DNA from: a virus
Direction: 5' to 3' (one strand)
Virus record (IMG/VR): IMGVR_UViG_3300013131_000243
Coordinates: 1-24,260 of that record
Length of the DNA: 24,260 nucleotides
Under the pieces are notes generated by a model. The model made no database searches, was not told where the DNA came from, and saw only the letters and a list, made by a program, of their open reading frames with translations. Shown here piece after piece: positions 2,472-23,344 of this stretch (positions are counted from its first letter, which is position 1; each line of letters begins with the position of its first letter). The position numbers and the translations under genes were made by a program.

Positions 2472-3185
2472 TTAAGATTTCATAACAGATGGGTCTCTCA
2501 TATCATCATAATCAAGCCCCATACCTATTCCAAACCCAACTTTTCTAGCATTTTCTCCTTGTAGTGCCAGTATGTCATTACTATCTTTTGCACTACCCTT
2601 GCTAAATACCCTGGCTTTCATGTCTTCCCATTCTTTTTGACCACGCTCAGCGCCAGTAGCCTTGTCTAAATCTACCCCCTGTATTGCAGCCAAAAATTTT
2701 CTTTCCTGATAATCAAGGTCTCTTTTGCTTTCCAATGTTGTTAATAATTCGGGCATTGATAAAGACTTTTCTAATTCTTGATAGTCTTTCCATATGCCCA
2801 ACAAAAATACCTCTGATTCTAATTTTGCCAAATCTAAATCATCCCATGTCTTACCACTATTGGTTGCTTGTTTGGTAACTGTTTCTTCTGATTGTTGATT
2901 TATTTTAATACCCGCTGAAATGTCTAAAATTTTATAGATTGTTGGAAGATCTAAATTATCCTCAATATCTTCAGTTGTTTTTGATATTTGTGGATAATAT
3001 TGTTTCATGCATATCCTTGCACATTCTGTCAATTTTTCAATAGCCTCATCATCACTCTTTGATTGTTTTACATCTTCAAAAGCAATCATAAATTCTCTAA
3101 GGTATTTTATCTTTAATGGAGTTATTTCTAATTCTGTACCGTCAATTAAAAAAATATTTCCACTCTTGTATATTTCTGTAGCCAT
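2472..3185 (-). CDS. Tail assembly chaperone, long form with fused T-like domain
   Basis: A 237-residue protein when started at the ATG at 3185 (MATEIYKSGN). An in-frame ATG lies 24 nt upstream, but it falls in the U-tract of the terminator after the tail tube gene. The 3185 start also aligns exactly with the N-terminus of the short paralogue. Residues 1-95 are the gpG-like domain (IDGTELEITPLKIKYLREFM, LDLPTIYKIL). Residues 96-112 form a polar linker. Residues 113-172 (WDDLDLAKLESEVFLLGIWK, then KSLSMPELLTTLE and LDYQERKFLAAIQGVDLD) are the kind of second domain normally added by a programmed frameshift. Residues 173-237 are an acidic tail. Here both domains are in one continuous frame. No clear Shine-Dalgarno site precedes the ATG; a TAGAAT box lies 7 nt upstream. 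Confidence 0.85.
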   Translation of the reverse strand: MATEIYKSGNIFLIDGTELEITPLKIKYLREFMIAFEDVKQSKSDDEAIEKLTECARICMKQYYPQISKTTEDIEDNLDLPTIYKILDISAGIKINQQSEETVTKQATNSGKTWDDLDLAKLESEVFLLGIWKDYQELEKSLSMPELLTTLESKRDLDYQERKFLAAIQGVDLDKATGAERGQKEWEDMKARVFSKGSAKDSNDILALQGENARKVGFGIGMGLDYDDMRDPSVMKS

Positions 3186-3192
3186 TTTATCT

Positions 3193-3201
3193 ATTCTATC
3201 A
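3193..3201 (-). promoter_or_regulatory. Possible extended -10 box directly before the long tail chaperone
   Basis: The minus strand reads TGATAGAAT followed by 7 nt and the ATG at 3185. It fits the pattern of this window's other promoters, with one change from TATAAT. It lies just past the terminator of the tail tube gene, so it could restart transcription there. Confidence 0.35.
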
Positions 3202-3204
3202 TAC

Positions 3205-3235
3205 AACAAAACCCACCCCGTTTAAGGGATGGGCT
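3205..3235 (-). terminator. Intrinsic terminator after the tail tube gene
   Basis: On the minus strand CCCATCCC pairs with GGGGTGGG (8 bp, one G-U) around the 6-nt loop TTAAAC, followed at once by TTTTGTTG. It lies between the tail tube stop (3260) and the long chaperone start (3185). It probably reduces expression of the chaperones and tape measure relative to the abundant tube protein. Confidence 0.75.
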
Positions 3236-5655: not shown

Positions 5656-6647
5656 TATAATACCCCAGGCTTACCAAAATTGGTAATATATTTCTCCAAA
5701 ATCTTATCCACTAAAAGATTTCCAGTTCCAAAGAAAGAACCCTTATCCACTTGTATTTTAAATTGATCTGTTGAATAGTTTGTTACATACCTCTTGTGAT
5801 AATCTAATCTACCACATTTAATATCATCAATAAGCATAAGAGTTGCATCTTTAATATCATAAGGTACTACTTTGTATCCCGTCGCCAATTGAAACAGGTA
5901 GTTCCATCCCATAGGAAATGTTACTCCTGGGGCTACGGCAATTGTGTTTGGGCTATCTTCTGAATTATACATATAAATAGAATCGGAGTATGCTAGTGGA
6001 ACCCCTCTTGGGAAACCTGCTTGACGAATATAGGAGTCTGTGATTTGAACCCAGTCTTTAATAATTGCAGTCTTATCTTTTGTTAACAAATAATTCCATT
6101 GTCCATCACCTTGTGCTTGTGGACTATCATCATTATCCCAAACAAGTTCATTATTTTCATATGCCTTAAGAATTAAATAAGTTCTTGACCATAGTGGCAT
6201 AAAGTCGGTATTGTTGCCAATTGTTTCATACCAAGAACGATTATAATAAAATCCGCCAGGAACAATTGAATCAATAATTGCTCTTGCTAGGTTTTCCCAT
6301 TCTGTATATTGAGCCTTTTCTGTAGCGGTAGTGCCAAGAGTATTTGGATCCACATATGGCCTATTTACCTCAAGATTATCTTCTACAACAATGTCGCCCT
6401 CTTCTGCGCTTGTGGAAGCGGTAGTGTAAACTGCATCGTAAATTGTTAAAGAATAAGAATCGTCATAGGTATTAAATAAATCTGGAAGAATGTAGGAGAT
6501 CTGGGAGTCTGCTGAAGATGTTATTGTTTCTTGAACTTCATTAACATTTCTAGTACCCTCATTAATTACTAGGATATAGTCTGTATCTGCTTCTGGCACA
6601 TCATATGTGATAGAAAGGGGATAGGGTGGGAGTCTTAAGATCTGCAT
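5655..6647 (-). CDS. Head-tail connector (adaptor-like) protein with N-terminal beta domain
   Basis: A 330-residue protein. The first 100 residues look like a beta-sandwich (MQILRLPPYPLSITYDVPEA, DDSYSLTIYDAVYTTASTSA). The rest is more helical, with YTEWENLARAIIDSIVPGGF near residue 115 and ATLMLIDDIKCGRLDYHKRY near 275, a helix pair that resembles head-tail adaptor proteins which dock on the portal ring. It follows the SAP-like small gene and precedes the stopper, so it occupies the usual adaptor position, though most adaptors are only 100-150 residues. The extra N-terminal domain is unusual and may be displayed on the neck. The start overlaps the upstream stop (TAATG) and lacks a strong ribosome site of its own. 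Confidence 0.5.
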   Translation of the reverse strand: MQILRLPPYPLSITYDVPEADTDYILVINEGTRNVNEVQETITSSADSQISYILPDLFNTYDDSYSLTIYDAVYTTASTSAEEGDIVVEDNLEVNRPYVDPNTLGTTATEKAQYTEWENLARAIIDSIVPGGFYYNRSWYETIGNNTDFMPLWSRTYLILKAYENNELVWDNDDSPQAQGDGQWNYLLTKDKTAIIKDWVQITDSYIRQAGFPRGVPLAYSDSIYMYNSEDSPNTIAVAPGVTFPMGWNYLFQLATGYKVVPYDIKDATLMLIDDIKCGRLDYHKRYVTNYSTDQFKIQVDKGSFFGTGNLLVDKILEKYITNFGKPGVL

Positions 6648-6997
6648 TATACTTTGCCGTAATGTTTGGCTACTTCTTCAGGCGTTGCTGATCGCACTGC
6701 CTTATGCTTTAGCCACTTTTCGGATACCTCCTTAGTAACAATATTATAACCCCTTTGAAGTTGCCCCACGCCATTCCAATGAAGATTCTTTTCTGAAAAT
6801 ACCGCCACCTTTTCTTGAACGGTACTTGATTTAACTTCCTGATGATCCTCTCTAGGAACAAAAGGTAAAATCGCTTCTAATAAGTCTAATTTTGTAGTTG
6901 CACCAAATGTATCAATATTATTTTTTTTAGCATATGACTTTAACTGTGGTACTGTCTTTTTATTAAATTCTTCTACTACTTCTTTTGTTGTTGCCAT
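6647..6997 (-). CDS. Small protein with SAP/HeH-like helix-extension-helix motif, neck region
   Basis: A 116-residue protein. Residues about 14-43 (TVPQLKSYAKKNNIDTFGAT, then KLDLLEAI) match the helix-extension-helix pattern of SAP or HeH domains, which bind nucleic acid in many proteins and occur in small phage head-region proteins. The C-terminal part (WNGVGQLQRGYNIVTKEVSE, then RSATPEEVAKHYGKV) is a second compact unit often seen in small proteins beside phage connector genes. A GTGGAGGAAA ribosome site and a TGATATAAT box lie directly upstream, so this gene probably heads the neck-gene operon that continues through four coupled genes. Whether it enters the virion or acts in packaging is not visible from sequence. 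Confidence 0.6.
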   Translation of the reverse strand: MATTKEVVEEFNKKTVPQLKSYAKKNNIDTFGATTKLDLLEAILPFVPREDHQEVKSSTVQEKVAVFSEKNLHWNGVGQLQRGYNIVTKEVSEKWLKHKAVRSATPEEVAKHYGKV

Positions 6998-7014: not shown

Positions 7015-7023
7015 ATTATATCA
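7015..7023 (-). promoter_or_regulatory. Extended -10 promoter box before the neck operon
   Basis: The minus strand reads TGATATAAT, 17 nt before the ATG at 6997, with GGAGG between them. It sits within 10 nt of the stop of the preceding 70-residue gene. Confidence 0.55.
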
Positions 7024-7029
7024 GAATCC

Positions 7030-7242
7030 CTATCTGTATAAACTTTGTGCTCTTCTTACTCCCGCAGGAGTCCCACTTATAATTACATTTTCACCAAAAT
7101 TAGGTGTTGGTATGCATCCCAATGCATATCTTTCTGTAATAATTCCATTAGGTCCACTAATGATTGTTCCTATACCGCCAACTGCTATAGCGCCGTCACC
7201 ACTGTGTTGATGATTTACTGTTGGTTCTCCTGGATATGACAT
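7030..7242 (-). CDS. 70-residue protein duplicating the capsid protein's N-terminal arm
   Basis: A complete small gene with a good ribosome site (AGGAG, 5 nt spacing) directly downstream of the major capsid gene. Residues 2-50 align without gaps to residues 9-57 of the capsid protein: both have YPGxPTVxHQHxGDGAxAxG near the start and TPNFG about 42 residues later, with 25 of 49 positions identical by hand count. Both then continue with an SGTP or TGTP turn. The small protein ends shortly after, at VRRAQSLYR, without any of the capsid fold. The role is unknown. It could be a minor capsid component, a competitor or regulator of arm contacts, or a decoration protein. A stable hairpin separates it from the capsid gene. 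Confidence 0.8.
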   Translation of the reverse strand: MSYPGEPTVNHQHSGDGAIAVGGIGTIISGPNGIITERYALGCIPTPNFGENVIISGTPAGVRRAQSLYR

Positions 7243-7257
7243 TTGTTCTCCTAATGT

Positions 7258-7292
7258 GATAAAGGAGGACAGTATTACCTGCCCTCCTTATC
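7258..7292 (-). other. Stable hairpin between capsid gene and its N-arm paralogue
   Basis: On the minus strand GATAAGGAGGGCAG pairs with CTGTCCTCCTTTATC around a GTAATA loop. There is one bulged base and one mismatch that becomes a G-U pair only in minus-strand RNA. No U-run follows, so it looks like a 3' stabiliser or processing hairpin for the capsid mRNA more than an intrinsic terminator. Confidence 0.65.
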
Positions 7293-7308
7293 GGTTAGTT
7301 TTTACAAA

Positions 7309-8448
7309 CTATGCGGTTGGATCAACGGCTGCATCTGCGTAAGCAACTGCATCCTGCTCTTCCCATTGTAAGCCAAAACGAACGAATACTGTGTACTCGA
7401 TTGTATCTTTCTTTGGCTTGTACTCACGGTTTACGGTAATATCTCTCTGGAAACCCCATACACGGTTAGCAGGGAATGTCAAATCGACATAATCTGCTGG
7501 GTAGTAAGGAACTTCCATAACATCAATTCCAAGAACACGAGTTGTACGTGCTCCACCGAATGTCTGTCCAACACCATCTAGGTATTGCTGACGATTGCGC
7601 TCTGTACCAGCAGCACGAGGTGCAAACGCTTCAGCAATTGCATCAGCGAGTGTACCGTTGTTTCTAACAATTCCCTGGAAAGCATCTGTACCAGCATAGA
7701 ACTTTAGGTTCTGCTTGATAGCACGATACTTACGTGGCATTGCAAGAATGATGTCCTGCATGACCTCTGTTGTCCAGTTGTCATCAGTAACAGTGACGAG
7801 TGCCTCATGAGCATCTCCATCATTTTGTACTTTGTAAACAAAGCCTTCCATGATTGAGAGGAATGATGCAGTTGTACCATCACCATTAATGGCTAGGTCT
7901 TCGATATCGTTAGCAAATGCATTGGTCATCAAGCGAACTAGATGATCTTCCAACGCACCTCCTTCAATATTGTCTTCAAGTGATTCTGTAGATACTTCCC
8001 AATCAAGACGAATCTTTTTGGTTGTTAACTCTACCTTAGTGAATGTAGCACCTGTGTTTGTATAATCGTTGCTTGCTTGTGCAGCAGCACGAATAACACG
8101 CTCACCAACGTTAACCTTCTCGATTTCCATGGTGTTTGCTCGCATTGTAACTCTACGACCATCTTTGGCGAGAACTGTTGCATCCCACACGTAGTCGATG
8201 AAGCGGCGAGCCTGCTCTGGCAGAAGAATACCACCTGGTGTACCAGTTGGACTTACTGCGTTCGGGCCGTTTGTCACACCAAAGTTTGGTGTAGCAATGT
8301 TACCCAGTTGAGCGCCAACATCAGATGTGGTTGGACTGGTTGCTGTTGCACCGCCAATGTCACCTGAAGCGAAAGCACCATCACCTGCGTGTTGATGCGC
8401 TACGGTTGGAGCACCTGGATAATTTTTTACGATTTCTTGTTCCGACAT
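7309..8448 (-). CDS. Major capsid protein (HK97-type)
   Basis: A 379-residue protein following the protease-scaffold gene, the standard place for the capsid subunit. The ATG at 8448 is chosen because AGGAGGTG lies just upstream; a GTG 9 nt earlier lies inside that ribosome site. Residues 1-60 are a glycine-, histidine- and threonine-rich arm (NYPGAPTVAHQHAGDGAFAS). The body from about residue 75 (LLPEQARRFIDYVWDATVLA) has features of HK97-fold subunits: an early helix-strand arm, a DWEVSTESLEDNIEGG spine-helix region, ANDIEDLAINGDG, and late IEYTVFVRFGLQWEEQDAVA. The N-arm is repeated in the next gene. The protein probably assembles on the scaffold encoded upstream and may be cut by its protease domain. 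Confidence 0.92.
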   Translation of the reverse strand: MSEQEIVKNYPGAPTVAHQHAGDGAFASGDIGGATATSPTTSDVGAQLGNIATPNFGVTNGPNAVSPTGTPGGILLPEQARRFIDYVWDATVLAKDGRRVTMRANTMEIEKVNVGERVIRAAAQASNDYTNTGATFTKVELTTKKIRLDWEVSTESLEDNIEGGALEDHLVRLMTNAFANDIEDLAINGDGTTASFLSIMEGFVYKVQNDGDAHEALVTVTDDNWTTEVMQDIILAMPRKYRAIKQNLKFYAGTDAFQGIVRNNGTLADAIAEAFAPRAAGTERNRQQYLDGVGQTFGGARTTRVLGIDVMEVPYYPADYVDLTFPANRVWGFQRDITVNREYKPKKDTIEYTVFVRFGLQWEEQDAVAYADAAVDPTA

Positions 8449-8475: not shown

Positions 8476-9057
8476 TTAATTAAATAGGTCGGCTGTTTTG
8501 AGGAAACGTCCGCCCCATAGGGATTTTTGAGTTTTCATTTCTGGAAACTCCTGCACGATCTCGCCTAGATCGCCAGACTTGCGGAAAGCGGTATCTTTTT
8601 CTACAAGATCTACTCGCTTTCCAAACTCATTAAAAGTTCCCTTTACTTGGCTTACCTCATTTGCTACAGACTTTACTTCGCCTGTAACTGTTTCAAGGGA
8701 CTTTGTGATTGCTTCAACGTTAGCCTGCATAGACTTAACTGTTTCAGCAAGATTGCTCAAGGCATTAGTAAGAGAGTCATTGATTTCAGCAACAGACTTT
8801 GCAATCTCTGCTGCACTATCAACTACTGCATCTACTGACTTTTCCGCTGCGATGTCAACAACAGGAGCATCTGCTACTGGTGCTGAATCTGCCACTGGCT
8901 CTGCAACAGGTGCTTCTGCAGAAACTTCTGCTGGAGCATCTACTGGAGCCTCTGCTACAGCATCTGCTGGAGCCTCTGGAGCAACCTCAACATTTTCAAC
9001 TACTTCTGCTGCATCTGCAACTGGTGCATCTACAACTTCCATTGTTTCTTCTGTCAT
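8476..9057 (-). CDS. Nested scaffold protein from internal in-frame start
   Basis: An in-frame ATG at 9055-9057 (MTEETMEVVDAPVADAAEVV) is preceded by AAGGAGG with an 8-nt spacer, stronger than the ribosome site of the full-length gene. Starting here gives 193 residues: the Ala/Pro/Val-rich linker plus the coiled-coil scaffold, without the protease or the cysteine motif. The start falls exactly at the domain border. This copies the well-known lambda arrangement, in which scaffold Nu3 is translated from within protease gene C. The ribosome-site match could be partly chance, since it also encodes Lys-Glu-Glu. The product is therefore a likely but unproven second protein. Confidence 0.6.
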   Translation of the reverse strand: MTEETMEVVDAPVADAAEVVENVEVAPEAPADAVAEAPVDAPAEVSAEAPVAEPVADSAPVADAPVVDIAAEKSVDAVVDSAAEIAKSVAEINDSLTNALSNLAETVKSMQANVEAITKSLETVTGEVKSVANEVSQVKGTFNEFGKRVDLVEKDTAFRKSGDLGEIVQEFPEMKTQKSLWGGRFLKTADLFN

Positions 9058-9798
9058 AGGATTTTCCTCCTTTGTAATCTTAATTGTCCTAATGCCTTTT
9101 GCACTATCAACTAAGAACTTTACTGTTGTGATATCTTCTTGATCTTCAACAAAGCCAATGTTTTTCATTGAATCATTGCAAGAAGGACAACTCTCATCAG
9201 AATCTTTTGAAAGTCTTACGATATCATCTGTTTTGCACCAATAAACTGTATCAACAACTGCCTTTGCTAAATACCCGCCAAGTTGCCCCTTTTCAATAGA
9301 GATAACATTAGCAAATTGATTTGCTGGGTTGTCAACAAGCGATAATTCATGCAAGTCGTACTCTTTAATTATACGCACTGATTTATCAATTTTTTCATCA
9401 TACATGTCATCAGACTTTGTAATATTTCCGCCAATTGAAAAACCAGTTAAAGTTCCATCAAGGACCTTCTCCCAAGTATCCTGGGCACCTTTTGAAACAT
9501 AGGCAGAAACATAGACTCCGCTATAAAACTTTTTTACCTGTGGATCAAAATAGCGATCCTCTTTAAAAGAAACAACCTTGCCTACAGCACTGGGTTGATG
9601 CATCTCACGAAGGTTGCCACGGAATTTCTTAAATGCGTCTATACTTGCTTCTGTCGTAACGATATCGCCTTGCTTATCTACGTTATCTAGAGTAGCAAAG
9701 CCAGAAACAATACGACGTTCTTGATCTACTTTACCAATGGGCATTGAAAAGCGAACATTGTCGCCATCAGTAACCCAGTGTGCTTTATTTATAGTCAT
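8476..9798 (-). CDS. Prohead protease (XkdF-like) fused to scaffold
   Basis: A 440-residue two-part protein. Residues about 1-170 form a prohead serine protease: IVSGFATLDNVDKQGDIV, His67 in REMHQPSAVGK, Ser121 in TLTGFSIGGN, and ELSLVDNPANQF near 151-162, matching the XkdF-like family that matures phage proheads. Residues 186-207 (C188, C204 and C207 in CPSC) look like part of a zinc ribbon. Residues 248-315 are Ala/Pro/Val-rich and low in complexity. Residues 316-410 are predicted coiled coil (KSVAEINDSLTNALSNLAET), typical of scaffolds. The C-terminal WGGRFLKTADLFN may bind the capsid protein. A second start at M248 has its own strong ribosome site. It follows the portal and precedes the capsid gene. 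The -10 box TATAAT lies 9 nt before the ATG, with no clear Shine-Dalgarno site. Confidence 0.88.
   Translation of the reverse strand: MTINKAHWVTDGDNVRFSMPIGKVDQERRIVSGFATLDNVDKQGDIVTTEASIDAFKKFRGNLREMHQPSAVGKVVSFKEDRYFDPQVKKFYSGVYVSAYVSKGAQDTWEKVLDGTLTGFSIGGNITKSDDMYDEKIDKSVRIIKEYDLHELSLVDNPANQFANVISIEKGQLGGYLAKAVVDTVYWCKTDDIVRLSKDSDESCPSCNDSMKNIGFVEDQEDITTVKFLVDSAKGIRTIKITKEENPMTEETMEVVDAPVADAAEVVENVEVAPEAPADAVAEAPVDAPAEVSAEAPVAEPVADSAPVADAPVVDIAAEKSVDAVVDSAAEIAKSVAEINDSLTNALSNLAETVKSMQANVEAITKSLETVTGEVKSVANEVSQVKGTFNEFGKRVDLVEKDTAFRKSGDLGEIVQEFPEMKTQKSLWGGRFLKTADLFN
9066..9072 (-). promoter_or_regulatory. Internal ribosome binding site for nested scaffold
   Basis: AAGGAGG on the minus strand lies 8 nt before the in-frame ATG at 9057, within the protease-scaffold gene and at its domain boundary. 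Confidence 0.6.
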
Positions 9799-9838: not shown

Positions 9839-11494
9839 CTATTGAGACGATCTGCCTTCACCTTGTGCATTTCTTCCAGATATGGTTGTAGGAGAATCTG
9901 ATTCATTATTTGCTCTTTCAGCATCTCTTTCTCTGTTACCCGCCAAGTTTGCTCTGGCATCTGTGGCTTGTCTAGCACTCATTGTAAATGGGTCATCTCC
10001 ATCTGGACGCTGTGACATGTTTAGTATTTCACGTGCCTCATTTGGAGTAATAACCTGAGTCTTGACATACCGCTCAATAATCTGAGATTGGGCAATTTCA
10101 TCTGTAAGTGTAAGTTCATTAAACTTAAGATCAAGAATGTCAGTCTTTTCCTTAACTATCTTATTTACGATCTTCTCTAAATGACGCTGGGCTGGACGAG
10201 AAACCTGCTCTTTAAATGTTCTATCCTGTGCAAGGGCAGCAGCGATAGCAGCAGAGTCAGATCCGCCAAGTTTTGAAATAGGAACTTGATGAGCAACCAA
10301 AATATCATCACGATTCTGTTTACGATATTTTTCAAATGAACCTTCTTGAACACCATTTTCAATAGGTTGCATACTAAACTCAACCTTATTTCCATCTGTA
10401 TCTCCAGGAAGTGGGATATATAGTGTTCTGTGATTTTGTCCTTTTAGACCTGTTTGCATAAAGCGGAACATCTTGTCTTCAGCATCAGCAGATAGTTTTG
10501 CACCCTTTACTGTGATGATATATCTTGGTACCGCTTTGTTTTGGAAATAATCAATATTATACTGAGCAGCAAGAGAGTCTCCAATAAGAGAAGAAACGGC
10601 AGATAAAATATCTGGAACCCCGTAAAATGTATTTAAAGGAGAGTATTGTTTAAGATGTAAAATTTCGTTTGGTCTTTGGTCTGCAGTAAGAGGATTTGTA
10701 TTTTTTGCACCAAAGTTTCTAAAGTACACTAACTTCTGACCAATGATTTGTACAAAGCCATCACGCAAACGACGGACACGAACTGTGGTTGCTGGAATGT
10801 GTCCAACATAACCAATCTCTCCAGTTACGGTACGGCCAATCTCAAGGAAGCCATTTCCTGTAGCCTGAACATCTGTATAGAACTTTTCCATTGTTTGCTG
10901 GAAGGTATCCTCATCATTTAAAGATTCTAGCCAGTCACGAACCTCTAGTTTCATACGCTCTACACGACGACGAGCACGATCAACGGCATCATCATCATCG
11001 TTCATTTCAAACCTTAACATTGTTCTATCTGTTAATTCAAATTTATAACCAAGACCTACAACATTTTCTACCTTTGCATCAATAGCAGCATGATTAGCAA
11101 AAGAAGTATCATAATAACTTGCTAGTTCATAAAGGTTATATGGTGGTGTAATTACATCAAATAAGCCATAGCCATTTTGATATACCGTTCCAGGATTAAT
11201 CTGTTTTGACTGTGCCCCGTCTTTTCCAGAAGGAAAGGCGTTTGCATCATTTAAATATGCAGGAGTTGTAGCAATTGCAGGATAACGAGGATTGTAGGTC
11301 TCTGGAGCCATAGAATACTTGGAAACTGTTCTGCTAGTTCTGCGCTTGAAATTAGTATCTATGCCAGACAGATCTTTAAGTTGGTCCCATGATTTTAAGA
11401 AAGGATCACTCTCAAGAAACTGATTGTTTCCTGTATCTTCTGTGTTTAGACTTGCTTGAATATATTCAAATTCTCTATCCATTTTCGTATGCAT
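9839..11494 (-). CDS. Portal protein (PBSX/HK97-like)
   Basis: A 551-residue protein forming the ring at the capsid vertex through which DNA is packaged. Recognised by the portal core: YDTSFANHAAIDAKVENVVG in the N-terminal part, TGEIGYVGHIPATTVRVRRL, then LHLKQYSPLNTFYGVPDILS, SLAAQYNIDYFQNKAVPRYI, a long clip/stem region, VAHQVPISKLGGSDSAAIAA and VKTQVITPNEAREILNMSQR. These are hallmarks of PBSX-type portals. The C-terminus is polar and disordered (ANNESDSPTTISGRNAQGEG). It is followed by the protease-scaffold and capsid genes, as usual. The start overlaps the upstream 136-residue gene by 20 nt. An in-frame ATG at 11482 is the other option and overlaps less, and ribosome-site evidence does not settle it. 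Confidence 0.92.
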   Translation of the reverse strand: MHTKMDREFEYIQASLNTEDTGNNQFLESDPFLKSWDQLKDLSGIDTNFKRRTSRTVSKYSMAPETYNPRYPAIATTPAYLNDANAFPSGKDGAQSKQINPGTVYQNGYGLFDVITPPYNLYELASYYDTSFANHAAIDAKVENVVGLGYKFELTDRTMLRFEMNDDDDAVDRARRRVERMKLEVRDWLESLNDEDTFQQTMEKFYTDVQATGNGFLEIGRTVTGEIGYVGHIPATTVRVRRLRDGFVQIIGQKLVYFRNFGAKNTNPLTADQRPNEILHLKQYSPLNTFYGVPDILSAVSSLIGDSLAAQYNIDYFQNKAVPRYIITVKGAKLSADAEDKMFRFMQTGLKGQNHRTLYIPLPGDTDGNKVEFSMQPIENGVQEGSFEKYRKQNRDDILVAHQVPISKLGGSDSAAIAAALAQDRTFKEQVSRPAQRHLEKIVNKIVKEKTDILDLKFNELTLTDEIAQSQIIERYVKTQVITPNEAREILNMSQRPDGDDPFTMSARQATDARANLAGNRERDAERANNESDSPTTISGRNAQGEGRSSQ

Positions 11495-15536: not shown

Positions 15537-17567
15537 TTAGGATATTTTTATTTCACAGGTATCAGTGGTGCAATAAGCCTCTCCCAAGGCCTCAAGATTG
15601 TCTACTCCGTCATAAATTGCAGACCAGTTAATCTTCTTTATCTGACCAACATAAGAGTTATACTCGTCTTTTGTAATTTGAGTATATGGTTGTTGTGGAT
15701 ATGTCTTATTGCCCATAGGCAAGAATGATACTGCTTTAAGTTGACCCTCATACATATGAAGTGCTGGAGCAACATGCTCTGTTTCTTTTTCCTTGTCAAA
15801 TGAAAGGGTAACAGAAACACCATTATCAGACCAATACTTCTGAGTTGTAGCAGCAAGGCCAATCTTCTCAAATAAGGTTACATCTTTTTCAGATCTAGCA
15901 TGTCCAGAATGAACTGGAAAATATACAACAGTTGTATTTTGTGATACAAGATCTGCCTCAGTTTTATACCCTGCTGCTTTAAATAAATGAATCATTGGAT
16001 CTGTGTTTCCAAAACGAATTGCACGAAGGAAGAAGTTTCCTCCTGGTCCCCAGTGAACTCCTGGAGTTGCACCAGATAACAATGACACTGAGCCTGAAGG
16101 CTTAACGGTTGTTACACGAATAGACTCACGAACACATAGCCACTCAGAATATGAATGATCGTATTTACGAATAGTCTTATATCCTTCATCCATCCATTCA
16201 CGAACTGCTGGCAAACCTTTTTGATCTGCAAAAGAAGCAATGCCAGTAAGCGATGTTCCAATACGACGGTTGCGTTGCATAATACCGTTTGTAATCTGCC
16301 AATGTGTAGGAACAAGAGTAACGGTCTTGCCATATAGATAAGCAAACTTTAAAGTACGCAAGAAATCTTCTTTAGATTCATGACGATTTAAATGTACCTC
16401 TACAAGTGTGCAGAGTTCATATGATTCTAATGGTTGCTCAGCACAAGGATTGAATCCCATTACACGATAATCTTTTCCATCTGCAGGATCTGCAAGACGG
16501 CCATAGTTACGAGCAACATCAAGCCAAATAAATCCTGGTTCTCCATTGTCTGCAATTAAATCTACATAATTTTCATACTTGGTTCCAACTTCTGCTGCAA
16601 TAGAATTATTACTCATCCATGCCCATCCAGGATTTTCTGGATCAAATGAGTTGCGCTCTGGAAACATCTCTGAATTCTTTAAATTAATAAATCCATCATC
16701 TGATGGACTTCCAAGTGCGAGGGTAGCAGAACGACGAACATTTCCTGCAACCACACAAGTTCCAATAAGATTTACAATATCAACAATTGCACGAGAATCA
16801 AGAATATCTCCTGCTCTATCTCCAATTACTTTACGAATGGTTTTGTGTAATTTAATTAAAGGTGCTGGACCTGAAGCGGTACCGCCAAAACCTTTAATAG
16901 GTGCACCTAATGGTCTAATTAAAGAATAATCAAAATTAATCTTAGCCTGACCTTGTTTCAAATATGAATTAATAAGTAGTCTTACAGATTCTACCCATCC
17001 TTCTCTTGTATCAGGTATTTGATATGATATTTCTTCTTTGGTATTGGTATATATTTCCATACCCTTTTCTTGTCCAAGGGTGTCAAATCCTACTCCTACC
17101 CCAAGCATCAGAGCATCCATAACCCAGCCAAAAAGGGCTCCAGGGTCGTTTCTATCAATGTCCCTAGTAGATACCATGGCACAGTTCTGTAAGGCCGCAG
17201 AATTGCGTCTCTCCATCGTCATAGGGGTACCAAAAGCCCATAGTCCACGACCTGGGGGAGTCCATTTAAGATTAAACATACGATCATAGGCTTCTTGAGC
17301 AGACTTCTGTGCCTTATTGTCATTCCAAGGAAGGCGATTTTCTTTAGCATGATTCTTTTGAACAGAGTACATTCCTTCAATTACCCGCTTACAAACCTCA
17401 TGCCAGCGTTCTTTTGTGCCATCTTCTTTGACTCTTGAATATGTACGGATAAAAGTTATCTCACCTAAAGAGTTGCCACCTGCGTCGGTAAAGCCAAAAG
17501 GAGACTCAACATCTTTATATTTATTAACAAATTCATCCAATAGCCTAAAAGAAAATACATCTGACAT
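15537..17567 (-). CDS. nrdJ: Adenosylcobalamin-dependent ribonucleotide reductase, class II
   Basis: A 676-residue enzyme reducing ribonucleotides to deoxyribonucleotides for phage DNA synthesis, using coenzyme B12. All key cysteines are present. C129 (QNCAMVST) and C386 form the active-site pair; C375 (FNPCAEQPLESYELC) is the thiyl-radical residue, with E377 two residues on. C375 to C386 has the same spacing of 11 as C408-C419 of the Lactobacillus enzyme. C666 and C671 at the C-terminus (YCTTDTCEIKIS) match its redox shuttle pair. GNVRRSATLALG and TTVKPSGSVSLLSGATPGVH are further hallmarks. It is about 60 residues shorter than the Lactobacillus monomer (739). Placement among structural genes is unusual. 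It has its own promoter and palindromes upstream, suggesting separate regulation. Confidence 0.95.
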   Translation of the reverse strand: MSDVFSFRLLDEFVNKYKDVESPFGFTDAGGNSLGEITFIRTYSRVKEDGTKERWHEVCKRVIEGMYSVQKNHAKENRLPWNDNKAQKSAQEAYDRMFNLKWTPPGRGLWAFGTPMTMERRNSAALQNCAMVSTRDIDRNDPGALFGWVMDALMLGVGVGFDTLGQEKGMEIYTNTKEEISYQIPDTREGWVESVRLLINSYLKQGQAKINFDYSLIRPLGAPIKGFGGTASGPAPLIKLHKTIRKVIGDRAGDILDSRAIVDIVNLIGTCVVAGNVRRSATLALGSPSDDGFINLKNSEMFPERNSFDPENPGWAWMSNNSIAAEVGTKYENYVDLIADNGEPGFIWLDVARNYGRLADPADGKDYRVMGFNPCAEQPLESYELCTLVEVHLNRHESKEDFLRTLKFAYLYGKTVTLVPTHWQITNGIMQRNRRIGTSLTGIASFADQKGLPAVREWMDEGYKTIRKYDHSYSEWLCVRESIRVTTVKPSGSVSLLSGATPGVHWGPGGNFFLRAIRFGNTDPMIHLFKAAGYKTEADLVSQNTTVVYFPVHSGHARSEKDVTLFEKIGLAATTQKYWSDNGVSVTLSFDKEKETEHVAPALHMYEGQLKAVSFLPMGNKTYPQQPYTQITKDEYNSYVGQIKKINWSAIYDGVDNLEALGEAYCTTDTCEIKIS

Positions 17568-17706: not shown

Positions 17707-17731
17707 AGTACTTTTAATTTTGCAAAGTACT
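17707..17731. repeat. Palindrome C at the end of the fibre gene
   Basis: AGTACTTT and AAAGTACT are perfect 8-bp arms with a 9-nt loop, starting at the fibre gene's stop codon. There is no following U-run on the minus strand, so it is not a standard intrinsic terminator. It shares the octamer AAAGTACT with palindrome A. Confidence 0.45.
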
Positions 17732-18951
17732 TAACTAATTACAAGACCAGACTTACCATCTTTTACTTCTCCCCATGTTAAACCAGGAAGAGCAGCAGAA
17801 ATTGCTGTGTTATTAATCTTAAATGACTTACCAGAAACAAGATTCATATGCTCTGAAGAGGTCCAAGCGTCAGTAGCATCTACCCATGTAAAGGTTTTAT
17901 TGGTTGCTCCTAATAATGTAATACCGCCACCATCAGCACCAGCATCTGTACTGTTTCCATAAGCAAGAACTATGTTCTTATCTTCTACTTGAAGGTGCTG
18001 GGTATCAATTGTGGTAGTAGTTCCATTAACTGTCAAATCTCCAGAAATAGTTACGCTGTTATTAAATGTTGTTGTACCACTGGTTGCACCAATTGACAAT
18101 GTAGTAGCGGCGCTACCAAGATTAATGGTTGTTGCGGTGGTATTAAGAAGATCAAAAGATGTTGATGCAGTGGTCAAAGATGTTCCTACGGAAGGACTTG
18201 TCAATGTCTTATTTGTTAAAGTTTCAGCACCCGCAATAGTTGCAAAGTCAGCATCAGTAAGTGCTGAATTAAACTCTGCTAAAGTTCCAGAAACTGTATT
18301 TGATCCAAGCGCTATTGTTTTATTACTAAGAGTAAGTGTATTGTTTGTGGTAGCAACAACGGTAGTGTCAACATTTAAAGTTACTGTACCGCTTGTGCCC
18401 CCTCCTGTTAAACCTGTGCCCGCTGTAACTCCTTCAATATCTGCTGGTATTAAAATTGTTCCACCAAGAGAAACTGATGTACCATTAATTGTAATTGCAG
18501 AGTTAGAAAGTTTATCGTTTGCAATAGATCCAGAAAGCATGGCATTTGTGACTGTGCCTGTATCTCCAGTTGTAATAATAGTTCCAGTTCTATCTGGAAT
18601 AGTAATAGTACGATCATCAGTAGGATCTACAGAAATAAGAGTTGTTTGATAAGAGTTAGTTGTAGCACCCTCAAAAATTACAGATTCTCTAGTTAAAACA
18701 TTTTTATTAGCATCTAATTCTGCTACGCCATTAACGGCACCCTTTTCAGTTATTTCAACATAACCTGCAAGGCTTGTATTTAGTTCTGACTCTGTAGCAA
18801 GATATGTAAGTTCAGACCATATGGTGCTACCGTCGCCAACCTTAAGTTGAGAAAGAGTAGTATTGTAACCAATTTCACCTTCATTGAGAATCGGGTCTGC
18901 ATCATTCCATTCGGAACTAGTGCCCCTACGCATTTGAATTCTAACAGCCAC
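17731..18951 (-). CDS. Tail fibre / receptor-binding protein with Mtd-type N-terminal domain
   Basis: A 406-residue protein. Residues 1-52 (MAVRIQMRRGTSSEWNDADP, then ILNEGEIGYNTTLSQLKVGD) form the N-terminal domain found in major tropism determinant and many phage fibres, which attaches to the virion. Residues 90-170 and 180-290 carry fibre repeats: VIFEG...DRTITIPDRTGTIITTGD, VTNAML, and ETLTNKTLTSP. The C-terminus (HLQVEDKNIVLAYGNSTDAG, then FTWVDATDAWTSSEHMNLVS) resembles a common marine and freshwater phage fibre ending. The start is GTG with GGAGG upstream and a TGGTATAAT promoter box. No reverse transcriptase or template repeat is nearby, so there is no sign of a diversity-generating system despite the Mtd-like domain. 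Confidence 0.85.
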   Translation of the reverse strand: MAVRIQMRRGTSSEWNDADPILNEGEIGYNTTLSQLKVGDGSTIWSELTYLATESELNTSLAGYVEITEKGAVNGVAELDANKNVLTRESVIFEGATTNSYQTTLISVDPTDDRTITIPDRTGTIITTGDTGTVTNAMLSGSIANDKLSNSAITINGTSVSLGGTILIPADIEGVTAGTGLTGGGTSGTVTLNVDTTVVATTNNTLTLSNKTIALGSNTVSGTLAEFNSALTDADFATIAGAETLTNKTLTSPSVGTSLTTASTSFDLLNTTATTINLGSAATTLSIGATSGTTTFNNSVTISGDLTVNGTTTTIDTQHLQVEDKNIVLAYGNSTDAGADGGGITLLGATNKTFTWVDATDAWTSSEHMNLVSGKSFKINNTAISAALPGLTWGEVKDGKSGLVIS

Positions 18952-18974
18952 AATAAACCTCCAGGTTATCTTCC

Positions 18975-18983
18975 ATTATACCA
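18975..18983 (-). promoter_or_regulatory. Extended -10 promoter box before the Mtd-like fibre gene
   Basis: The minus strand reads TGGTATAAT, 23 nt before the GTG at 18951, with a GGAGG ribosome site in the leader. Confidence 0.55.
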
Positions 18984-18990
18984 AAATTTG

Positions 18991-19389
18991 TCATGCTGCA
19001 CTACCGCCATCTATTACTGATGTAAACGATGTTGTTGCTGGTGTACCACCATCGAGTGAAGTTCCAAGCCAGGGTCCTACTGGACCGTTTCCTTGATATT
19101 GATAAATGCTATCCACAAAACCATCTGCATTATGAGTGTGATCTGTTACTCCAGAAGTGTCATCATAATTTGCTATAGCATACCAAGTAGAACTATAATA
19201 ATAATAGATACGATTTGTATTTGTATCTAAATGCATTGCCCCATTTGATGGGCTTACAGGAAAAGTACTTCCTACAGTAATAGCAGAGCCTGTAAAGGCT
19301 GTGGTTTGAACTGTGTTGTCTGGGAATGTAACTCCAGTAGCGACCTTAAGGCCTTGTTTTACTACAAAGTCTCTATCGGTTGTTGCCAC
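18991..19389 (-). CDS. Small fibre-associated protein
   Basis: A 132-residue protein starting with GTG, as judged by its N-terminus MATTDRDFVVKQGLKV, which parallels that of the 781-residue fibre just upstream (MATVDKAFRIKNGLVV). This shared cap may be a virion-docking element. The middle reads TFPDNTVQTTAFTGSAITVG, SPSNGAMHLDTNTNRIYYYY and SSTWYAIANYDD, a beta-rich pattern common in phage fibre and baseplate-tip proteins. DHTHNADG follows, and the C-terminus is glycine- and threonine-rich. The ribosome site is weak: GAAGGGA lies about 12 nt before the GTG. No enzymatic motif is present. Probably a fibre subunit or tip adaptor; the exact role is unknown. Confidence 0.65.
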   Translation of the reverse strand: MATTDRDFVVKQGLKVATGVTFPDNTVQTTAFTGSAITVGSTFPVSPSNGAMHLDTNTNRIYYYYSSTWYAIANYDDTSGVTDHTHNADGFVDSIYQYQGNGPVGPWLGTSLDGGTPATTSFTSVIDGGSAA

Positions 19390-19418
19390 TGAAGTTCACT
19401 GTCCCTTCGTGGTTCACA

Positions 19419-21764
19419 TTACGCTTCGATTAGCGTTCTGTGCACCTTTACTGTTGTACCATTTGTTGATGTTACGAGTAGACGAACATCTGATCCTGAG
19501 TAGTCTGCATCAATTGCACCAATCTGTGCATTACTTTGAACATCTGCATACTCAGTGATATAAACATTGTTATTTCCATCGACTGTTACAAGGGCCTCTA
19601 GAACTTCAATGTCATCTCCATTACGCATTTGAACTACGTACTTAGCAGACTTAAATGTTGCTGCCGCCCATGCGTCTACTACAGTTGCGCTAGTTGTTGT
19701 AACGCTTGTTGTAGCAGTGCCCATAAGAGCATCTGTAAGTGTTACATATCCAACGCCAATGCTTACGAATGCTGGGCTAGATGTTGTAGCAATGCTTTGT
19801 GGTAAAGATAATGTTACTGCACCAGTTGATGTTGATGCTATAACTTGATCTGCTGTTCCTGCTAGGCTTGTTACGCCTGCGTTTGTAATTGTAAGAACAT
19901 TGTTTGTTGAAGCATAAGATGCTGTGATTCCTGTACCGCCAGTTACTGCGTTACCGAATGCATCAATTGATGTTTCAATATCAGATGTGAAGGCTAGTGT
20001 ACCTGTTGCATCTTGAAGTGTAATTGTACGATCTGCTGTTGGATCCGTTACTGTTAATGTTGTTTCATGATCATTTGCTGTACCCTCAAAAACAATACTT
20101 GAATCATCTAACTTAAGACCAGTTACTGTTGGTGTAGTAAGTGTTGGACTTGTTAGAGTTTTGTTTGTAAAAGTCTGTGCTGTGGTAAGATCTGCTGTAA
20201 CTCCAGTATTGATGCTGAATGAGTTACCAGTTAGTGTTAATCCGTTTCCAGCAACAAATGTTCCTGCTCCAGAAAATTGTGAGAAAGTAATTTCTGTTAC
20301 ACCAATAGTTACAGAATTATTTGTACAAACAAAACCTTTGTCTGCATTTGAAGTTCCTGCCTCAACAAATGTAAAGGCTGATGGAAATTCACTACCTTCA
20401 TTCATATCTAATGAACGAGTTGGTGCTCCAGAGGCTTGAACTACATAAATACCATTAGCAGTTGCATCTGTTTGATCCTTAATAAGAATTCTGTCACCAG
20501 TTGCAAGAGTTACACCATCTATTACACTTCCATTATCAAAATCAGTGGCAAGTGTTCCATTTTCAGTTGTAGCAACTCTTACAGATGCTTTAACGTCTAA
20601 TCCTTGTGCTACAGAATCAACATATTGTTTTGTTGCTGCTTCTAGAGCCTGTGAAGGATCTGCATTTAGAGTTACAGTTCCTGGAAATACTACTGTATTT
20701 GGAAGAGATAGAACAATGTCACCAGTAGTTGAACTTACTGCAATCTGACTTGTTGTACCACTCACGCTAGAAACACCAGCAGTGATATTAATTGATCCAC
20801 CAAGAGAAGTTGCAGTTCCATTAATTGTAATGCTTGAATTTGCAAGCATTGCATTTGTAACAGTGCCTGAATCACCTGTGGTAACTACTGTACCAGTTAC
20901 ATCTGGTAGTGTAATTGTGCGATCTGCAGTAGGATCAGTTACAGTCAAAGTTGTTTCATGATCATTTGCAGTTCCTTCAAAGACAATGCTTGAATCTGAA
21001 AGATATAAGCCAGAAACTTGCGGTGATGTAAGAGTTTTATTTGTAAGTGTCTGTGTTCCAGATGTTGTTGCTACCGTTGAATCAATTGCTACTGTTACCG
21101 CTGAAGATCCATCATAAGATGTTCCTGAAAGGCCAGTACTAATTGTCAACGCATTTGGATTAACTGCTGTAACTGTTGCAGAACCACCAAGAGAAATTGA
21201 AGATCCGTTTACTGTTAGTGAAGAATTTGTTAAAGATCCATTGCCAATATTTGTAATTGTATTTGATGTACCTGAAATAGTTTTATTTGTAAGGGTTTCA
21301 CTACCCGCTAAAGTTGCAAAGTCTGCATCGCTAAGTGCGGTATTAAACTGTGCAATAGTTCCTGAAAGGGTATTGCTTGAAAGATTTATTGTTTTATTTG
21401 TTAGAGTATCTGTTGTTGCCTTACCAACAAGTGTATCTGTAGCATTTGGCAATGTTACTGTTTGATCTTGTGTTGGTTCTGGTGAAAGAAGTGTTAGTTC
21501 ATAATCATCTGGTGTATTTCCTTCAAAGATGATTCTATCTGCAAATGTTGGTGTTTCCGATACTGCTGCATCAATTACGCCTGTTGTATCATTATATGTA
21601 AATGTAATACCTGTTTGTGTACCGCCTGTGAACATCGCTGCAGTAGTATCTTGCAGAAATTCTGTGCTCGCCTCTGTAAGAACGTTTGAGCCATTAACTG
21701 TAGCAGATGATCCTTCTACTACCAGGCCGTTCTTGATGCGAAAGGCTTTGTCGACTGTGGCCAT
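19419..21764 (-). CDS. Large tail fibre protein with internal repeats
   Basis: A 781-residue fibre. Residues 1-25 form a docking-type cap. Three VFEG-type repeats lie at 77-114, 256-294 and 553-592; the last two share IVFEGTANDHETTLTVTD and the following DPTADRTITL. LTNKT motifs recur near residues 121, 159, 241 and 533. Residues 377-501 form a widely shared phage fibre domain (KQYVDSVAQGLDVKASVRVA, GDRILIKDQTDATANGIYVV, ITFSQFSGAG). Residues 695-781 (KYVVQMRNGDDIEVLEALVT, then YITEYADV and the final VKVHRTLIEA) are a C-terminal domain shared with the protein at 21784-22221. A good AAGGAG site precedes the ATG. It probably recognises the host surface. Confidence 0.87.
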   Translation of the reverse strand: MATVDKAFRIKNGLVVEGSSATVNGSNVLTEASTEFLQDTTAAMFTGGTQTGITFTYNDTTGVIDAAVSETPTFADRIIFEGNTPDDYELTLLSPEPTQDQTVTLPNATDTLVGKATTDTLTNKTINLSSNTLSGTIAQFNTALSDADFATLAGSETLTNKTISGTSNTITNIGNGSLTNSSLTVNGSSISLGGSATVTAVNPNALTISTGLSGTSYDGSSAVTVAIDSTVATTSGTQTLTNKTLTSPQVSGLYLSDSSIVFEGTANDHETTLTVTDPTADRTITLPDVTGTVVTTGDSGTVTNAMLANSSITINGTATSLGGSINITAGVSSVSGTTSQIAVSSTTGDIVLSLPNTVVFPGTVTLNADPSQALEAATKQYVDSVAQGLDVKASVRVATTENGTLATDFDNGSVIDGVTLATGDRILIKDQTDATANGIYVVQASGAPTRSLDMNEGSEFPSAFTFVEAGTSNADKGFVCTNNSVTIGVTEITFSQFSGAGTFVAGNGLTLTGNSFSINTGVTADLTTAQTFTNKTLTSPTLTTPTVTGLKLDDSSIVFEGTANDHETTLTVTDPTADRTITLQDATGTLAFTSDIETSIDAFGNAVTGGTGITASYASTNNVLTITNAGVTSLAGTADQVIASTSTGAVTLSLPQSIATTSSPAFVSIGVGYVTLTDALMGTATTSVTTTSATVVDAWAAATFKSAKYVVQMRNGDDIEVLEALVTVDGNNNVYITEYADVQSNAQIGAIDADYSGSDVRLLVTSTNGTTVKVHRTLIEA
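19989..20108 (-). repeat. Fibre VFEG repeat, copy 3
   Basis: Encodes residues 553-592 of the large fibre (DDSSIVFEGTANDHETTLTV and onwards). It is almost identical in protein to copy 2 at 20883-20999, and also similar in DNA, with synonymous differences. Confidence 0.8.
20883..20999 (-). repeat. Fibre VFEG repeat, copy 2
   Basis: Encodes residues 256-294 of the large fibre, followed by a TTGDSGTVTNAML segment. The same segment follows the VFEG unit of the neighbouring Mtd-like fibre, linking the two genes by shared modules. Confidence 0.8.
21423..21536 (-). repeat. Fibre VFEG repeat, copy 1 (divergent)
   Basis: Encodes residues 77-114 of the large fibre (RIIFEGNTPDDYELTLLSPE and onwards). 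It is recognisable but diverged from copies 2 and 3. Confidence 0.65.
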
Positions 21765-22434: not shown

Positions 22435-22811
22435 TAGTCTGTAATATCCTCAACCATATTTATAGTACCCTGCAAAACTGTCCATACAATTGCATTGGCT
22501 GTAGTAGCCATCTGAATATCAAATTCATCATCTGTTTCTAAAATTTCTGTTTCATCATATTCTAAATATACCGTGAATTCTCCTGGACCGTCATCTTCGT
22601 CTGCTTCTGGGGTAACTGTCAAAACAACGCTGGTAGTTGAAGGACGATAAAAATCCATTTCAATTGTCCAATCAGAAATGTCTAAAGGTTCTCCTGCATC
22701 ATCTTGGACATACATTTTAAAAGAAGCAGTGTCGCCTCTTACGATTGTCCATATAGATTGTGGTGGCTCAGAACCAATTTGATATGGTGATTGATTTCTA
22801 TATTGTGCCAT
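22434..22811 (-). CDS. Ig-like beta-sandwich virion protein
   Basis: A 125-residue acidic protein starting at the ATG at 22811 (MAQYRNQSPYQIGSEPPQSI). The start is supported by GCAGGA 9 nt upstream and by a one-base overlap with the previous stop (TAATG); an ATG 30 nt further upstream lies inside the preceding gene and lacks this support. The sequence (IWTIVRGDTASFKMYVQDDA, GEPLDISDWTIEMDFYRPST, EFTVYLEYDETEILETDDEF) resembles the N-terminal Ig-like unit of phage baseplate upper proteins, with the 'RGDTxxFKxxVxDxxGxPLDISxW' pattern. It may bridge fibre and tail. The acidic loop (PEADEDDGPGE) could bind calcium, but that is speculation. Confidence 0.7.
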   Translation of the reverse strand: MAQYRNQSPYQIGSEPPQSIWTIVRGDTASFKMYVQDDAGEPLDISDWTIEMDFYRPSTTSVVLTVTPEADEDDGPGEFTVYLEYDETEILETDDEFDIQMATTANAIVWTVLQGTINMVEDITD

Positions 22812-23344
22812 TATGATAATCCTGCTTTCATTGATCCCCAAGTTCCGTTGCCAGTAACTGTCCCTACAAGTATAATTCCATTTACGTTAACATATGCAAC
22901 AACGCCAACTGCACCAGAGCCTGAACTTGGTTGAACATCTGTAAGACCCCCACCATCGGCGGTATACAAAATAGAACTAGAAGTAAAAGCAGCAGTATTA
23001 ACTCCTGAAAATACACCAGATAAAACAATTACTCCACTAGATCCATCTGCTATTGCTGTTTGGGCTAATCCTGCTACAGGAAAAGTATTTATATCTGTTG
23101 AATCACATCTAGATATTTCTGGTTTGTTTTCTACTGAATCATATCCTGATATAAATACAGGATCACCTTTAGAAATATTTTCTCCACTATTATTTGAAAC
23201 TTCAAGGGTATGTAAAGGAAGTCCAATAGAAGGCAAAACATTTTCAATTTGTTCTGCTAATTGCTGTATATCTCCTGCAACATCTACGCTATCAGAGTTA
23301 ACGGGAAACGGCAAATCATAGGTGCTAGTTCTTCCAGAGGCCAT
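22811..23344 (-). CDS. Beta-rich virion surface protein
   Basis: A 177-residue protein. Residues 1-40 contain a short helical segment (VAGDIQQLAEQIENVLPSIG) preceded by a proline-rich start (STYDLPFPVN). The rest is a glycine-, serine- and valine-rich beta domain (NISKGDPVFISGYDSVENKP, FPVAGLAQTAIADGSSGVIV, VGVVAYVNVNGIILVGTVTG), of a type common in aquatic phage tail-fibre or capsid-surface proteins. It is followed without a gap by the Ig-like gene. The upstream element is TGGTATAAT, 6 nt from the ATG, with no ribosome site, so its mRNA may be leaderless. Whether it belongs to fibre, baseplate or capsid surface is not visible. Confidence 0.7.
   Translation of the reverse strand: MASGRTSTYDLPFPVNSDSVDVAGDIQQLAEQIENVLPSIGLPLHTLEVSNNSGENISKGDPVFISGYDSVENKPEISRCDSTDINTFPVAGLAQTAIADGSSGVIVLSGVFSGVNTAAFTSSSILYTADGGGLTDVQPSSGSGAVGVVAYVNVNGIILVGTVTGNGTWGSMKAGLS

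Follow-up and report, generated by a model that had tools for sequence, protein, structure and literature searches.

A free paralogue of the capsid arm encoded behind the major capsid gene: a candidate accessory capsid protein of tailed phages

What is the role of a 70-residue protein that is encoded directly behind a major capsid protein (MCP) gene and resembles the N-terminal arm of that same MCP? The question is raised by IMG/VR record IMGVR_UViG_3300013131_000243, a tailed-phage fragment of 24,260 nucleotides, analysed here over its whole length (the window). Nearly every gene lies on the minus strand, where the order is portal, head maturation protease, MCP, small gene, Rho_N/SAP-like protein, and then the connector and tail genes. 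The head genes are the following.

9839..11494, minus strand: portal protein (PF04860, E=9.2e-29; phrog_12).
8476..9798, minus strand: head maturation protease with a coiled-coil-like C-terminal part (phrog_9427, E=9.7e-121; Peptidase_S78; weak coiled-coil matches at 320-400).
7312..8448, stop codon 7309-7311, minus strand: MCP, 379 aa, HK97 type (phrog_1623, TIGR01554, tblastn to Streptomyces phage MCPs).
7030..7242, minus strand: small gene for a 70-aa free paralogue of the capsid arm, MSYPGEPTVNHQHSGDGAIAVGG...SGTPAGVRRAQSLYR (homology; at least 65 distinct homologues behind MCP genes).
6647..6997, minus strand: Rho_N/SAP-like next gene (profile matches; the N-terminal match is weak).

The coiled-coil-like part of the protease is probably the scaffold. 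In phages without the small gene, the Rho_N/SAP-like gene follows the MCP gene immediately. Elsewhere in the window, a B12-dependent class II ribonucleotide reductase (15537-17567, minus strand) is located amid the structural genes. Large fibre-like proteins with repeated TLTNKTLTSP units occupy 17731-21764 (minus strand), one of them matching both head-decoration and tail-fibre PHROGs, and the gene at 22811-23344 (minus strand) weakly matches the head-decoration family phrog_122 (E=1e-4), making its product a second candidate accessory head protein. Two neighbours in the tail region, 2102-2416 and 2472-3209 (minus strand), appear similar by eye over their first 100 residues (MATTVHESKELTLMDGTKISVRPLKI and MATEIYKSGNIFLIDGTELEITPLKI) and are possible tandem paralogues.

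Profile matches to known families place the MCP among the HK97-fold major capsid proteins (TIGR01554, E=9.6e-13, above the cut-off; phrog_1623, E=1.1e-71). Its best tblastn matches among phage records come from Streptomyces phages of the Stanwilliamsviridae, at about 40-45% identity. The ATG at 8448 is the likely start, since a GTG nine bases upstream falls within the MCP Shine-Dalgarno sequence AGGAGGTG. The N-terminus has two features of interest.

8212..8448, minus strand: N-terminal arm of the MCP, residues 1-79, ending LLPEQ before the capsid fold.
8389..8397, minus strand: HQH (HxH) motif of the MCP arm, residues 18-20.

The TIGR01554 alignment begins at MCP residue 68, corresponding to profile position 108 of 385, so the arm sits where HK97-type MCPs have their N-terminal pro-region. 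In the Streptomyces phages Karp and BillNye, about 25 unrelated residues stand in its place, and neither such an arm nor a small gene was found with the Streptomyces phage MCPs. The AF2 model of the MCP is poor (pLDDT 35) and gives no inside or outside placement of the arm; searches of solved structures returned no MCP relative above noise.

The relationship between the small protein and the arm is clear. Residues 2-50 align with MCP residues 9-57 over 49 positions, with 0 gaps and 25 identities, exactly as counted by hand in an earlier, sequence-only reading of the locus. BLASTP extends the match to 30 identities over 66 columns (composition-corrected E=4e-14), and the Smith-Waterman score of 124 lies 17.8 SD above those of 3000 shuffles (30.8±5.2, best 56), with the next-best window protein at 39. 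The corrected BLAST value and the shuffles rule out a low-complexity artefact, which the sequence-only reading had named as a possible pitfall. The block that it described as ending at TPNFG is genuinely homologous, but the match continues past this point to GTPxG(I/V), and among relatives it reaches the final arm residues (GTPxGIxLPxQ). In three small proteins (L030, L063 and L153), GPNAVNPSGTPNGIRLPxQ is retained as such or with slight variation, and the match to the MCP arm GPNAVNPTGTPGGILLPEQ extends to the residues immediately preceding the capsid fold ARRFIDYVWD. With 70 aa and homology that stops at GTPxG(I/V), the small protein falls outside the HK97 fold with its E-loop and its P and A domains; significant homology, a conserved separate gene and a single origin make it a partial, arm-only paralogue of the MCP. 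No match was found in Pfam, PHROGs or NCBIfam, and profile searches of Pfam and PHROGs linked it to no known decoration family. The tblastn search against 50,697 phage records returned nothing even at E<=10, and solved-structure searches gave no relative. The 25 large related contigs contain no arm homologue elsewhere, except for one weak match (E=0.005) that lies antisense to a fibre gene.

The small protein also has features of its own.

7204..7212, minus strand: HQH (HxH) motif, residues 11-13, identified by alignment with the MCP HxH.
7135..7167, minus strand: hydrophobic strand-turn-strand TIISGPNGIIT, residues 26-36, from column comparison and a low-confidence AF2 model.
7033..7056, minus strand: basic C-terminus RRAQSLYR, where the MCP continues LLPEQARRFIDY (sequence comparison).

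The first MCP residues, MSEQEIVKN, are reduced to MS in the small protein, to which the peptide YALGCIPTPNFGENVIISGTPAGVR belongs. The segment TIISGPNGIIT is specific to it, the MCP arm being polar at this place (ATATSPTTS). The C-termini of related small proteins (RASRR, SRRRR, YRRRTR) are likewise Arg/Lys-rich where the MCP enters its fold. Thus, the description of the gene product as a free copy of the arm requires qualification: the hydrophobic hairpin and the basic C-terminus show that it is not a plain copy, whereas a separate-gene paralogue of the arm is supported by the conserved pairing, the single origin, purifying selection and correlated change. Modelled alone by AF2, the small protein reaches a pLDDT of 46 with no confident fold, and the sole strands of three or more residues are those at TIISGPNGIIT. 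The lack of a stable fold in isolation fits an arm that folds on binding. Among the paired small proteins, only those of L039 and L066 lack the HxH, and there the MCP arm lacks it too; HxH pairs of this kind could perhaps bind metal.

Relatives were collected by three IMG/VR scans of up to 80 loci each and a motif scan that added more loci; the counts reflect loci returned by the scans and are not abundances. Among the matches listed, at least 65 distinct small proteins are encoded directly behind MCP genes of IMG/VR phages, the small gene starting about 65-80 bp past the MCP stop. Arm types were compared for the 165 distinct complete MCPs with sufficient downstream sequence. Among the matches listed, the small gene is found behind 58 of 72 HxH-armed MCPs, 2 of 21 NxxG-armed MCPs, none of the 66 with a YQGQG arm and none of 6 others, two of them armless. 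It therefore occurs, among these matches, only beside arm-bearing MCPs and nearly always beside the HxH type, and the capsid-plus-arm gene pair anticipated from the single locus is indeed conserved among phages.

The distribution is nevertheless patchy. On the MCP-core tree, presence of the small gene takes 12 changes on the best tree, at least 5 of them forced by well-supported branches. Two pairs of loci (L034 and L035, L076 and L237) have near-identical MCP ends and flanks, and the small gene is cleanly missing from L034 and L076. Near-identical MCPs with and without it indicate that the small gene is an accessory cassette, dispensable for assembly. Absence or breakage in related phages had been put forward as grounds for doubt: where present the gene is intact, but it is absent from many relatives, which fits accessory status. 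At L013:4001-5146 (and also in L017), an arm without HxH (PPGPLNGQG) coincides with the absence of the small gene, both having changed together; the L013 MCP is close to HxH-armed relatives that carry it.

A tree combining 51 small proteins with 76 arms, built from few columns and including two long small-protein rows (L039 and L066), places the small proteins on one side of a branch with support 100/98. A single clade apart from the MCP arms implies one old origin, and repeated independent or recent duplications are ruled out by it. For the direction, partial duplication of the MCP arm region into a small gene seems the simpler reading, and the reverse capture appears less likely. The locus L073:3647-5808 carries an exact 1081-bp tandem duplication of most of the MCP gene and the start of the small gene, which is either a fresh duplication or an assembly artefact.

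Could the small gene be a relic or selfish by-product of such a partial duplication, with no function? Its absence from many relatives would agree with this, and L073 illustrates that such duplications arise or are mis-assembled. Against this stand at least 65 distinct intact versions, one old origin in place of repeated young duplications, and the co-variation with the MCP arm described below. In addition, purifying selection acts on the small gene, whose pN/pS of 0.43 compares with 0.27 for the arm and 0.15 for the MCP core (values from pairs that are not independent). We regard a functionless relic as highly improbable, the data already disfavouring it.

The two proteins change in step. In 59 of 59 pairs the two proteins match in how many residues separate YPG from HxH, with 0 discordant: the spacing is 5/5 in 50 pairs and 4/4 in 7, and HxH is missing from both proteins in 2 (L039 and L066) and nowhere else. 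On the MCP-core tree, both of the well-supported independent contrasts show matching spacing changes; with 2 (supported) to 4 contrasts in all, a sign test cannot reach 0.05. Small-protein distances follow those of the arm (Mantel r 0.83) more closely than those of the core (0.70), with a partial Mantel r=0.64 beyond the MCP-core distance. Recent gene conversion is an unlikely cause, because the small gene shows no special similarity to its own MCP gene, either in third-codon identity (own arm 0.525, other arms 0.520) or in nucleotide identity of the N-part (own MCP 0.63, others 0.61). Part of the co-variation could reflect co-inheritance of a tightly linked segment.

Tracking of the arm of the same phage would also be expected of a counter-defence decoy, in which the free arm occupies a host immune sensor of the MCP arm. 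Some bacterial defences sense capsid proteins, and the patchy gain and loss seen on the MCP-core tree would be expected of a decoy as well. However, the small gene lies among the head genes and is probably expressed at a late stage, later than would suit a decoy, mimicry would require neither the hairpin insertion nor the basic tail, and we know of no defence system against these phages. A decoy is, in our view, very unlikely.

The expression context has three features.

7258..7292, minus strand: stem-loop after the MCP gene (folding; position conserved in relatives).
7248..7252, minus strand: AGGAG Shine-Dalgarno sequence of the small gene, five bases upstream of its ATG (sequence).
7015..7042, minus strand: promoter-like site with TGaTATAAT, directly after the small gene and before the next head gene.

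Both the ribosome site of the small gene and the hairpin behind the MCP gene, as noted from the sequence alone, are present. AGGAG-like sites also precede the small genes of relatives, and the 106-nt stretch after the MCP gene has an MFE of -31.7 kcal/mol (z=-4.5). The further claim that the hairpin causes separate expression is weak, because the hairpin also occurs without the small gene and its tail in the window is not U-rich. Post-MCP folding energies in HxH phages average -25.0 kcal/mol with and -24.7 kcal/mol without the small gene, and the stem-loop is common to relatives of both kinds, including Streptomyces phage Karp. It is thus a general feature of the MCP 3' end in this lineage and gives no evidence for a special arrangement of the pair; a role as special separator of the two genes is ruled out. 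A TG-TATAAT-type motif is found at the same place in relatives, including those without the small gene, as read by eye, and in the window promoter scan the overall motif count was not above that of shuffles. The small gene, which has a Shine-Dalgarno sequence of its own, is flanked by a terminator-like element on the MCP side and by a promoter-like site ahead of the next gene. Lying behind the MCP 3' hairpin and ahead of that site, it would be expected to yield less protein than the MCP gene.

A conserved relative of the arm that changes in step with the MCP arm suggests an accessory part of the shell. We propose, at about even chances, that the small protein is a minor accessory component of the capsid, sub-stoichiometric to the MCP and joined to the MCP arms via the shared motif. 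The gene would have arisen once from partial duplication of the MCP arm region, and the free arm would co-assemble with MCP arms in the head via the shared YPGx(4-5)HxHxGxGA, the arm clusters perhaps binding metal via their HxH pairs. The hydrophobic hairpin and the basic tail would add a contact beyond the reach of the MCP arm, for which vacant arm sites at the portal vertex, bracing of capsomer junctions, and DNA on the inner face are candidates. A more specific and more tentative version of the proposal holds that only the arm of the MCP was duplicated, and that the product, now a free subunit that has acquired a hairpin and a basic tail, supplies the arm in trans. The copies would be kept in register, and free and tethered arms would co-assemble at special head positions, perhaps around a shared metal site.

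Alternatively, the small protein may act outside the virion as an assembly regulator, the free arm competing with or nucleating arm–arm contacts in the prohead, thereby setting rate or size, and then leaving or being degraded. It would in effect be a free piece of an HK97-delta-like N-terminal region. The position of the MCP arm, at the N-terminal pro-region of HK97-type MCPs by TIGR01554, is consistent with this, and dispensability and gene order suggest a modulatory role. However, the arm is Gly-rich and, unlike the HK97 delta domain, gives no hint of a coiled coil; the protease already seems to carry a fused scaffold-like segment, and the conserved HxH and Arg-rich tail resemble virion contacts more than a transient scaffold. 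We consider a regulator of this kind rather unlikely.

A third possibility is an exposed decoration that aids adhesion to cells or iron-scavenging surfaces, in which arms and small proteins would together build short trimeric spikes that carry iron in their HxH pairs. Iron coordination by HxH pairs is known from trimeric fibre tips such as that of T4 gp37 (PMC11705849), several decoration proteins mainly help host attachment (PMC7602432), and the HxH occurs at matched spacing in both proteins here. Each chain, however, contains a single HxH in place of the multiple motifs of fibre tips, and the basic tail fits inner-face or DNA contact equally well or better. This role appears distinctly unlikely, and a minor capsid component joined to the MCP arms remains our preferred reading.

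The hosts are probably aquatic (freshwater) actinobacteria, because 8 of the 9 large related contigs (80-108 kb) carry WhiB genes, and an Actinomycetota MAG includes one phage contig with a related MCP. If the proposal is true, an arm-only paralogue kept in step with the MCP arm would represent a simple route by which a phage derives an accessory component of the shell from the very protein that builds it. Natural pairs of phages whose MCPs are nearly alike, one having the small gene and the other lacking it, offer ready-made comparisons.

To our knowledge, accessory capsid proteins are usually either unrelated to the MCP or full-length paralogues of it. No arm-only MCP paralogue was found described in our literature searches, which covered mainly open-access papers. 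The delta domain of HK97 gp5 is helical, fused and cleaved off. Like it, the MCP arm lies N-terminal to the mature HK97 fold (an approximate position, from TIGR01554); unlike it, the arm is Gly-rich, part of the MCP, and also found as a separate gene. The vertex protein gp24 of T4, a minor component of the capsid, originated when the gene for the MCP, gp23, was duplicated. The small protein is likewise an MCP paralogue, but gp24 is full-length, has the HK97 fold and replaces the MCP at vertices, whereas the small protein consists of the arm only, without the capsid fold. In Bacillus phage SPP1, gp12 is a small protein whose gene lies beside the MCP gene, and the small protein proposed here would similarly be a small Gly-rich accessory protein encoded beside the MCP. 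SPP1 gp12 is a collagen-like auxiliary capsid protein that makes a small contribution to capsid integrity (PMC7602432). Whereas gp12 contains collagen-like repeats and is not known to be related to an MCP arm, the small protein is an arm paralogue, and no GXY collagen repeats were found in the small-protein alignments. The 'Dec-arm' of P74-26 gp87 and P23-45 gp88, disordered in the free state, becomes ordered once bound to the capsid, where it connects neighbours across the threefold axes (PMC7602432). It is an extension of a folded beta-tulip protein that has no relation to the MCP, whereas here the arm is nearly the whole small protein and an MCP paralogue. As in T4 gp37 and marine phage fibre tips, a His-x-His pair lies in a Gly-rich segment, but the HxH is not repeated, there is no fibre context, and the metal site is putative. 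The small protein is thus similar in size and genomic setting to SPP1 gp12 and, like T4 gp24, is a paralogue of the MCP, yet it is neither.
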